Below are positions 9,971 to 13,082 of a stretch of DNA of 46,825 nucleotides, piece after piece (the first letter of the stretch is position 1; every line of letters begins with the position of its first letter). Origin of the DNA: an uncultured Verrucomicrobiota bacterium. Lineage in GTDB: Bacteria; Verrucomicrobiota; Verrucomicrobiia; Limisphaerales; AAA164-E04. The position numbers and the translations under genes are program-made. Below the pieces are notes generated by a model, which worked only from the letters and a program-made list of their open reading frames with translations, had not been told where the DNA came from and made no database searches. The stretch is from the NCBI GenBank assembly GCA_913061285.1, contig CAJXVR010000016.1:1-46825 (forward strand), written 5' to 3'.

Positions 9971-10393
9971 ATGCACGGAGCAAGGGATAGCCTAAGCCGC
10001 TTCACTGAGGCTCAAGATTCGATCTATCCTCAAGTCCTGAGAGAGTTACGCGCTGGGGAGAAACGCTCCCATTGGATGTGGTTCGTCTTCCCCCAGCGGA
10101 GGGGCTTGGGTTCGAGCACCAACGCACACTTCTACGGACTGGCTTCGCTTTGTGAGGCGCAAGACTATTGGGCACACAGCATCCTCGGCCCTCGACTTAT
10201 CGAATGCACCGAACTCGTCTTAAACATCAACGAACGATCCGCCTTTGAAATTTTTTCGTCCCCAGACGACCTCAAATTTCAATCGTGCCTAACGCTGTTC
10301 CTACAGGTTGAACCCAAAGCCCCTTTATTCACCAAGGCCTTAAGCCACTACTTCAACGGTGTTCCCGACCAACGCACGCTCGATCTTCTTTAA
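9971..10393 (+). CDS. DUF1810 family protein
   Basis: FTEAQDSIYPQVLRELRAGEKRSHWMWFVFPQRRGLGSS...LGPRL.EC..LVL pattern. Confidence 0.9.
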   Translation: MHGARDSLSRFTEAQDSIYPQVLRELRAGEKRSHWMWFVFPQRRGLGSSTNAHFYGLASLCEAQDYWAHSILGPRLIECTELVLNINERSAFEIFSSPDDLKFQSCLTLFLQVEPKAPLFTKALSHYFNGVPDQRTLDLL

Positions 10394-11408: not shown

Positions 11409-11441
11409 AAAAAAAACCCGCTCCGGTTAAGGAGCGGGTTT
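11409..11441 (-). terminator. Intrinsic terminator upstream of the EamA gene (candidate attenuator)
   Basis: aaacccgctcc / ggagcgggttt 11-bp perfect stem (11414-11424 with 11431-11441), 6-nt loop; A-run 11409-11416 gives a U-tract on the minus strand. Confidence 0.85.
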
Positions 11442-11468
11442 AAGCTTTCTAATCCAATTAAAAGACAA

Positions 11469-11561
11469 TCAAGACCGACGCTGTACCACTCCACAAGACA
11501 CACTAAGCCACGACCAGAGGCCTCGCTTAATAATCGGAAGGAGTTGTTTTACAATCGTCAT
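11469..11561 (-). CDS. Putative leader peptide MTIVKQLLPIIKRGLWSWLSVSCGVVQRRS
   Basis: 30-codon ORF with W-S-W, ending 28 nt before the terminator stem on the same strand; weak SD (AGG adjacent to ATG). Confidence 0.4.
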   Translation of the reverse strand: MTIVKQLLPIIKRGLWSWLSVSCGVVQRRS

Positions 11562-11660: not shown

Positions 11661-13082
11661 ATGAAACCAACGATTCCCCTCACCGTTCTCGGATCGTTCC
11701 TACTCGCTGTCATCGCGTTCTCTCCCGTAACGGGAGCCGAAACAACGCCGCTCCACATCGAAGCCTATCCCGACCAACTTAGTTATCAGCCCGGCGATTC
11801 CGTTCAGCTCCACGTTTCAACCTCAGTCAAAGAATACGCCCTTTCAATTAGCAGACGAGGTGCGGAATCAACTCTTGTCACAACAGTCGATCGCATTAAG
11901 GGGGCGTCCTACCCCATACCAGAAAATGCTTCCTCCCACGGCTGTGACTGGCCTGTCGGCTACCGATTCGAGATCCCGTCAACATGGATATCTGGCTACT
12001 ACGAGATCACCCTCACCGCAAGCGATCAAGGAGGCCCCTATGTTCATCGGAACCATCGGACCGCCAGCACAAGACTCTTCTTCATTGTTCGCTCAGCAAA
12101 TCCTGGAAAACAGAGCCGCATACTCCTACAACTAGCAACCAACACCTACAACGCCTACAACAATTGGGGAGGCTCGAGTCTCTACGCCTATCATGGCCGA
12201 TCTAAGCTTCAAGGCCATCGTGTCTCCTTTGATCGCCCATTGACAGGATTCTTCAGCAAATGGGAACTTCCCTTTATCGCCTGGGCCGAAGAAAATGGCT
12301 ACCGACTCGACTACGCAGTCAATTCAGATTTGGAACACCGACCCGAGATTCTCAAGAACTACAATCTCATCCTCAGCGTAGGCCACGACGAATACTGGTC
12401 GACGCCAATGCGTGACCATCTCGAATCATTCATTCAAAATGGCGGCAATGTGGCCTTCTTCAGCGGAAACAGCGTTTGTTGGCAAGTCCGTAGCGAAGAT
12501 GATGGTCGAGCACTGACCTGCTGGAAACAATGGTACAATTGGGACCCTGAATATCGATCCACGGATCACAAAACACTCTCTACCCTCTGGAGCCATCATC
12601 TTCTGAATCGTCCCGAGAACACCCTCACTGGAGTCGGCTTCCTATGGGGCGGCTATCATCGTAGCCACGGCCAATTCATGGACGGCTCCGGGGCCTTCAC
12701 CGTACATCGCCCCCAGCATTGGCTTTTCGGAGGGACCCAGCTAAAGCGGGGAACCGAGTTTGGAGGCGAGCACACCATCGTAGGCTATGAATGCGACGGC
12801 TGTGAAATGCGCTGGGAAAACGGTCTCCCCTACCCTACCCACCGCGACGGCACCCCGCAGGGATTCGAAATCCTCGCAACAGCACCGGCAAAATGGCATC
12901 CAGGCGACAGTCATTGGTATGACCGATTCGAGAAAGACCGCATCGGAGCCGCAGTCGTCGGCACCTACACTCGAGGAGGCACCGTCGTCACGGTAGGCAC
13001 AACGGACTGGTCACACGGACTGGAAGGCGGCGATCCCACCGTCGAAAGAATCACCAAAAACATTCTAAACCGCCTTAAGTAA
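11661..13082 (+). CDS. Secreted N,N-dimethylformamidase beta-subunit-like protein (paralogue of 1317-2885)
   Basis: Signal peptide; NTYNAYNNWGG, HRVSFDRPL, LSVGHDEYWSTPM, FFSGNSVCWQV, C-terminal TTDWSHGLEGGDPTVERITKNIL. Confidence 0.8.
   Translation: MKPTIPLTVLGSFLLAVIAFSPVTGAETTPLHIEAYPDQLSYQPGDSVQLHVSTSVKEYALSISRRGAESTLVTTVDRIKGASYPIPENASSHGCDWPVGYRFEIPSTWISGYYEITLTASDQGGPYVHRNHRTASTRLFFIVRSANPGKQSRILLQLATNTYNAYNNWGGSSLYAYHGRSKLQGHRVSFDRPLTGFFSKWELPFIAWAEENGYRLDYAVNSDLEHRPEILKNYNLILSVGHDEYWSTPMRDHLESFIQNGGNVAFFSGNSVCWQVRSEDDGRALTCWKQWYNWDPEYRSTDHKTLSTLWSHHLLNRPENTLTGVGFLWGGYHRSHGQFMDGSGAFTVHRPQHWLFGGTQLKRGTEFGGEHTIVGYECDGCEMRWENGLPYPTHRDGTPQGFEILATAPAKWHPGDSHWYDRFEKDRIGAAVVGTYTRGGTVVTVGTTDWSHGLEGGDPTVERITKNILNRLK

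Follow-up and report, generated by a model that had tools for sequence, protein, structure and literature searches.

An EamA/DMT transporter gene of an uncultured Verrucomicrobiota bacterium is very probably regulated by ribosome-mediated transcription attenuation in response to charged tRNA-Trp. On the minus strand of the window (the whole stretch of 46,825 nucleotides that was analyzed), a promoter, a 30-codon ORF, a hairpin followed by a U-tract, and the transporter gene succeed one another in this order, and a leader ORF with Trp codons and a terminator precede the gene in every verrucomicrobial orthologue we examined whose transporter is intact. The reading as Trp attenuation, advanced in an earlier note on this DNA, is thus supported, and the elements named there were all found on the minus strand, correct to the base, by inspection of the sequence, ORF reading, and a terminator scan.

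The sigma-70-like promoter TTGCCT-N16-TATATT (11604 to 11577; 9 of 12 matches in a consensus scan) lies immediately 5' of the leader ORF, and the predicted start of transcription is ca. 10 nt 5' of the leader ATG. With a promoter in this position the terminator would fall inside the transcript. The ORF (11561 to 11469) encodes the peptide MTIVKQLLPIIKRGLWSWLSVSCGVVQRRS and contains two Trp codons, Trp16 (11516 to 11514) and Trp18 (11510 to 11508). Downstream, the terminator is a perfect 11-bp stem with 7 G-C pairs, formed by AAACCCGCUCC (region 3, 11441 to 11431) and GGAGCGGGUUU (region 4, 11424 to 11414), and ends in a run of eight T residues (11416 to 11409); the scan of the locus found one terminator against 0.3 expected. 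The GTG start of the transporter (325 amino acids, 11393 to 10416) follows 15 nt beyond the T run. The protein matches PF00892 in two stretches (99.7 bits; E value, 2.1e-28), with both halves individually above the Pfam cut-off. As for the neighbors, both on the plus strand, a DUF1810 protein converges on the transporter (9971 to 10393) and a gene with an N,N-dimethylformamidase-like domain (DMFA2_C) diverges from it (11661 to 13082); neither gives a hint of a Trp pathway.

The leader RNA folds more stably than shuffled sequences (z = −4.9) and holds alternative pairings, among them those that had been pointed out. Region 1 consists of UUGUA (11554 to 11550) and ACUCC (11544 to 11540), which pair with UACAG (11485 to 11481) and GGAGU (11492 to 11488), respectively. 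Region 2 (GGAGUGG, 11492 to 11486, continuing to UACAG) lies inside the leader ORF and begins 15 nt past the second Trp codon, while the leader stop codon is positioned past it. In the antiterminator, GGAGUGG pairs with CCGCUCC (11437 to 11431) within region 3, and this 7-bp duplex, taken singly in the window, exceeds shuffles with a P value of 0.037. The resemblance to classical attenuation geometry holds for the leader ORF, the alternative pairings, and the terminator, but not for region 1, which occupies codons 3 to 8 of the ORF, upstream of the Trp codons instead of over them.

We examined the conservation of this arrangement in other members of the phylum, and the orthologues supplied the strong part of the evidence. 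A class-wide search retrieved orthologues in other families, most of them 43 to 50% identical; an alignment-based scan across named genomes assigned them to Chthoniobacterales, Verrucomicrobiales, Opitutales, and Puniceicoccaceae, whereas a scan of the genome contigs with a single protein gave no match. The upstream order is a short ORF of 23 to 30 codons, then an intrinsic terminator (25 to 33 nt further on in most, and present between leader and transporter in each), then the transporter start, with a gap from terminator to transporter of about 10 nt in G559. The leader peptides, which include MLKLGKATIWILRPRAGTWSIAV, MAKRIPLLIWLVGPLGPARRNFALA, MSARILKPVLWIVGPLGPARMLTVDA, MIRIASATLLNLLLWLRPVGRNVRAID, MANIRKTALTSNILWLGLWIIRRGAVSVM, MISTPQRLALTILWILLSRIRRGARVR, and MMAHPSRSLLWLALRSGRAVPAWAGEIMMQ, are otherwise dissimilar: Trp is the sole invariant residue, 11 to 20 codons before the stop, and several leaders carry two or three Trp codons at varying places. 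Thus, every intact orthologue examined has control codons for one and the same amino acid ahead of the transporter, and the comparison of orthologous leaders that the earlier note had proposed for the ORF, the Trp codons, and the stems came out positive. A leader ORF with Trp 33 to 66 nt before the stop was found in 13 of 13 nonduplicate verrucomicrobial loci against 1.1 expected from shuffles, a result that we call only strong despite a nominal P value of ca. 1e-15, as the limits were set after the data had been seen and the loci are related. In the ORFs of one close pair (L069 and L117), a count by eye gave five silent and three replacement changes and no indel. When 20 leaders (proteobacterial ones included) were aligned on a Trp residue, the next most conserved position was a Leu at −1, present in 15 of them and often seen as CTCTGG (11519 to 11514 in the window); we count this preference among the points against a Trp attenuator.

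The same comparison bears on two other readings. A TnaC-like arrest peptide, in which free Trp and a critical Trp of the nascent chain stall the ribosome near the stop codon and Trp induces a YddG-like Trp exporter, is in our judgment very unlikely. The fairly constant distance from Trp to stop (11 to 20 codons) would suit it, and EamA proteins such as YddG are described as exporters of aromatic amino acids. However, the TnaC motif has conserved residues from the Trp up to a terminal Pro, and in these leaders we saw no conservation at the C terminus, a terminal Pro was absent, and Trp was the one invariant residue; the multiple Trp codons at varying places and a region 2 placed for a stall at a Trp codon, not at the stop, also argue against arrest. 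In the other reading, the ORF and hairpin form a separate small gene or small RNA that has a terminator to itself, next to a transporter expressed from its own promoter or by constant read-through. Such a unit would present a similar ORF and terminator, but we consider it just as improbable: the pair stays directly 5' of one transporter clade through several families, the peptide varies at every position except Trp, and the transporter begins so soon afterwards (15 nt in the window and about 10 nt in G559) that many loci have no space for a promoter.

Support for the pairings of the Trp attenuator came from shuffled sequences across loci. The best duplex between the sequence that follows the first Trp codon and the 5' arm of the terminator gave a combined P value of 0.0012, with region 2 beginning 6 to 18 nt past a Trp codon; single loci ranged from 0.002 to 0.64, and several (G508, L066, and L071), taken singly, were no better than shuffles. 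For region 1:2, the combined P value was 0.0008. Against the model, energy minimization of the RNA in the stalled state favored the terminator in most loci, among them that of the window. A fixed rule recovered 13 of 14 orthologues and none of 22 other EamA loci (drawn from the genome of the window and its relatives) or 17 trpE loci; it was written after the positives had been seen, although the controls had no part in its tuning.

Within the order, a search of 320 genomes gave strong matches only in G001, of the same genus, plus a distant homologue in G095 with no comparable leader upstream. The G001 leader retains a promoter with the hexamer spacing of the window (TTGCCA-N16-TATAGG), ATGACGATTGYAAAAC, GGAGTGGTRCARCG, and a terminator, but its ORF, MTIAKRFLITVKPDIGGLAVL, is frame shifted and has no Trp codon. 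The transporter itself (L031, 400 to 1230; G001:C69) is a pseudogene with frameshifts and stops. The earlier note had held that orthologues keeping the terminator and lacking the Trp codons would refute attenuation, and G001 alone formally shows this combination. Since its transporter is a pseudogene and Trp is present in all intact orthologues examined, we did not count G001 as a counter-example and read the loss of the Trp codons as decay alongside the gene. Pairwise alignment with the window showed 21 of 21 pairs kept in region 1:2 and the terminator together, with three compensatory changes, one among the 10 of 10 pairs of region 1:2 and two in the terminator, while the 2:3 helix kept 6 of 7 pairs with none. 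The changes in the first two stems are suggestive only, as two sequences are compared and 57 of 500 shuffles were equally good. It was the protein route that located this leader, which a DNA similarity search in the family had missed; the extra hits of that search, as far as we inspected them, resembled coding or CRISPR sequence with no relation to the leader. A CRISPR-like array with the repeat GTCTTCATTGCCTTTCGGCATTTAGTTCATTCACGAC occurs at L040 and L048 (G001:C28).

The G001 comparison also touches on a T-box-like element, in which uncharged tRNA would bind GGAGUGGUACAGCG, a match in 11 of 14 letters to the T-box AGGGUGGNACCGCG with GCG:CGC in the window replaced (by eye) by ACG:CGU in G001; we rejected this reading as scarcely credible, since RF00230 misses the locus and stays below its cut-off of 93 bits throughout the genome (best, 15 bits elsewhere), the ~80 nt from the predicted start to the motif are too short for a typical Stem I and pair with region 2 instead, and the motif is not retained beyond the genus while the Trp codons are conserved in orthologues. 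What the locus has in common with the T-box riboswitch is a terminator/antiterminator switch that reads amino acid supply and, in the genus, a superficial UGGU motif; it differs in having a translated leader and neither a Stem I nor an RF00230 match. Other Rfam families gave as little: Trp_leader (RF00513) scored 17.1 bits at the locus against a cut-off of 41, weak hits such as Leu_leader, rnk_pseudo, and Trp_leader arose mostly through the terminator and were all far below their cut-offs, and no leader family hit the orthologues.

We propose that the Trp attenuator would work as follows. When Trp is plentiful, the ribosome would clear the UGG codons and cover region 2 during the synthesis of region 3, so that regions 3 and 4 would pair and transcription would end before the transporter. 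When Trp is scarce, the ribosome would stall at the UGG codons and leave region 2, ~15 nt downstream, free to pair with region 3, which would block the terminator and allow the transporter to be made. If the leader is not translated, region 1 would pair with region 2, and the terminator would form. Region 1 would be opened early in translation and not masked by the stalled ribosome. The position of the stop codon fits the design described by Elf and Ehrenberg (PMC1183508), in which a stop far downstream in region 2 delays ribosome release until the terminator decision.

Among known systems, E. coli trpL (RF00513) resembles the window in that a short leader ORF carries two Trp codons close together, the RNA has alternative 1:2, 2:3, and 3:4 pairings, and an intrinsic terminator stands ahead of the first structural gene. 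It differs in controlling trpEDCBA instead of a transporter and in belonging to a different phylum, and in the window region 1 precedes the Trp codons and the stop codon lies past region 2. Within the same superphylum (PVC), the trpRBA operon of Chlamydia has a predicted trpL attenuator with a Trp-rich leader peptide, for which experimental support has been called thin; in contrast to the window leader, it lies within a trp operon and has 59 residues in C. trachomatis (PMC6504234, PMC3937554). The openly accessible papers searched, supplements aside, held nothing relevant on an EamA gene with a Trp attenuator or on leader peptides in Verrucomicrobia, and the main text of Naville and Gautheret 2010 has no mention of EamA, Verrucomicrobia, or tryptophan. 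We regard the locus as a probable new case of classical ribosome-mediated Trp attenuation, with its priority not certain. It would extend this type of control to the Verrucomicrobiota and to a transporter gene instead of a biosynthetic operon.

As Trp starvation is what would switch the gene on, we lean slightly toward the view that the transporter imports Trp or a closely related compound. TrpE-type and TrpC domains were both present in each of the 11 genomes, among them G001, in which we looked for the two, so import would supplement synthesis. YddG and LicB belong to the same DMT superfamily; YddG is an EamA protein that exports aromatic amino acids, and LicB is described as an importer. 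Sequence and profile searches of solved structures returned no YddG or LicB chain at E values of up to 10 and only weak EmrE hits. The superfamily is very large and its substrates are mostly unknown. Given that the leader peptide names the signal, the attenuator provides a direct, testable substrate hypothesis for the whole transporter clade, and a leader ORF with Trp next to a terminator is a compact signature for annotation.

On a phylogeny built from 83 transporters, the presence of a leader needed 5 changes versus 21 in shuffles, and the 16 leader-bearing transporters of Verrucomicrobiota formed one clade (support, 100/99). Two further groups of homologues, from Proteobacteria, were preceded by short ORFs with Trp, mostly as (K/R)LW. 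We give about an even chance to the wider proposal of an EamA/DMT family of Trp or Trp-precursor importers, induced by Trp starvation, each with a Trp-codon attenuator to itself, distributed across Verrucomicrobiota and present too in Thiotrichaceae and Ferrovum-like Proteobacteria, with the tested verrucomicrobial trpE genes lacking such control. The Trp-containing leader ORFs of L075, L076, L080, L082, L107, L110, L121, and L140 lie ~250 nt upstream of the transporter; the peptide of Ferrovum myxofaciens, for instance, is MMINSNSFLLPNPKRLWLQNPDRVVSCTV. A TPP riboswitch (L140, 1393 to 1493, minus strand) occurs near a Thiotrichaceae homologue, with no evident link. Beside the gene start, the proteobacterial loci have apparent alternative hairpins, for example GCGGGUC..GACCCGC or GCGGGAAUC..GAUUCCCGC, and since these are mostly devoid of a clean U-tract, the output there may be translational.
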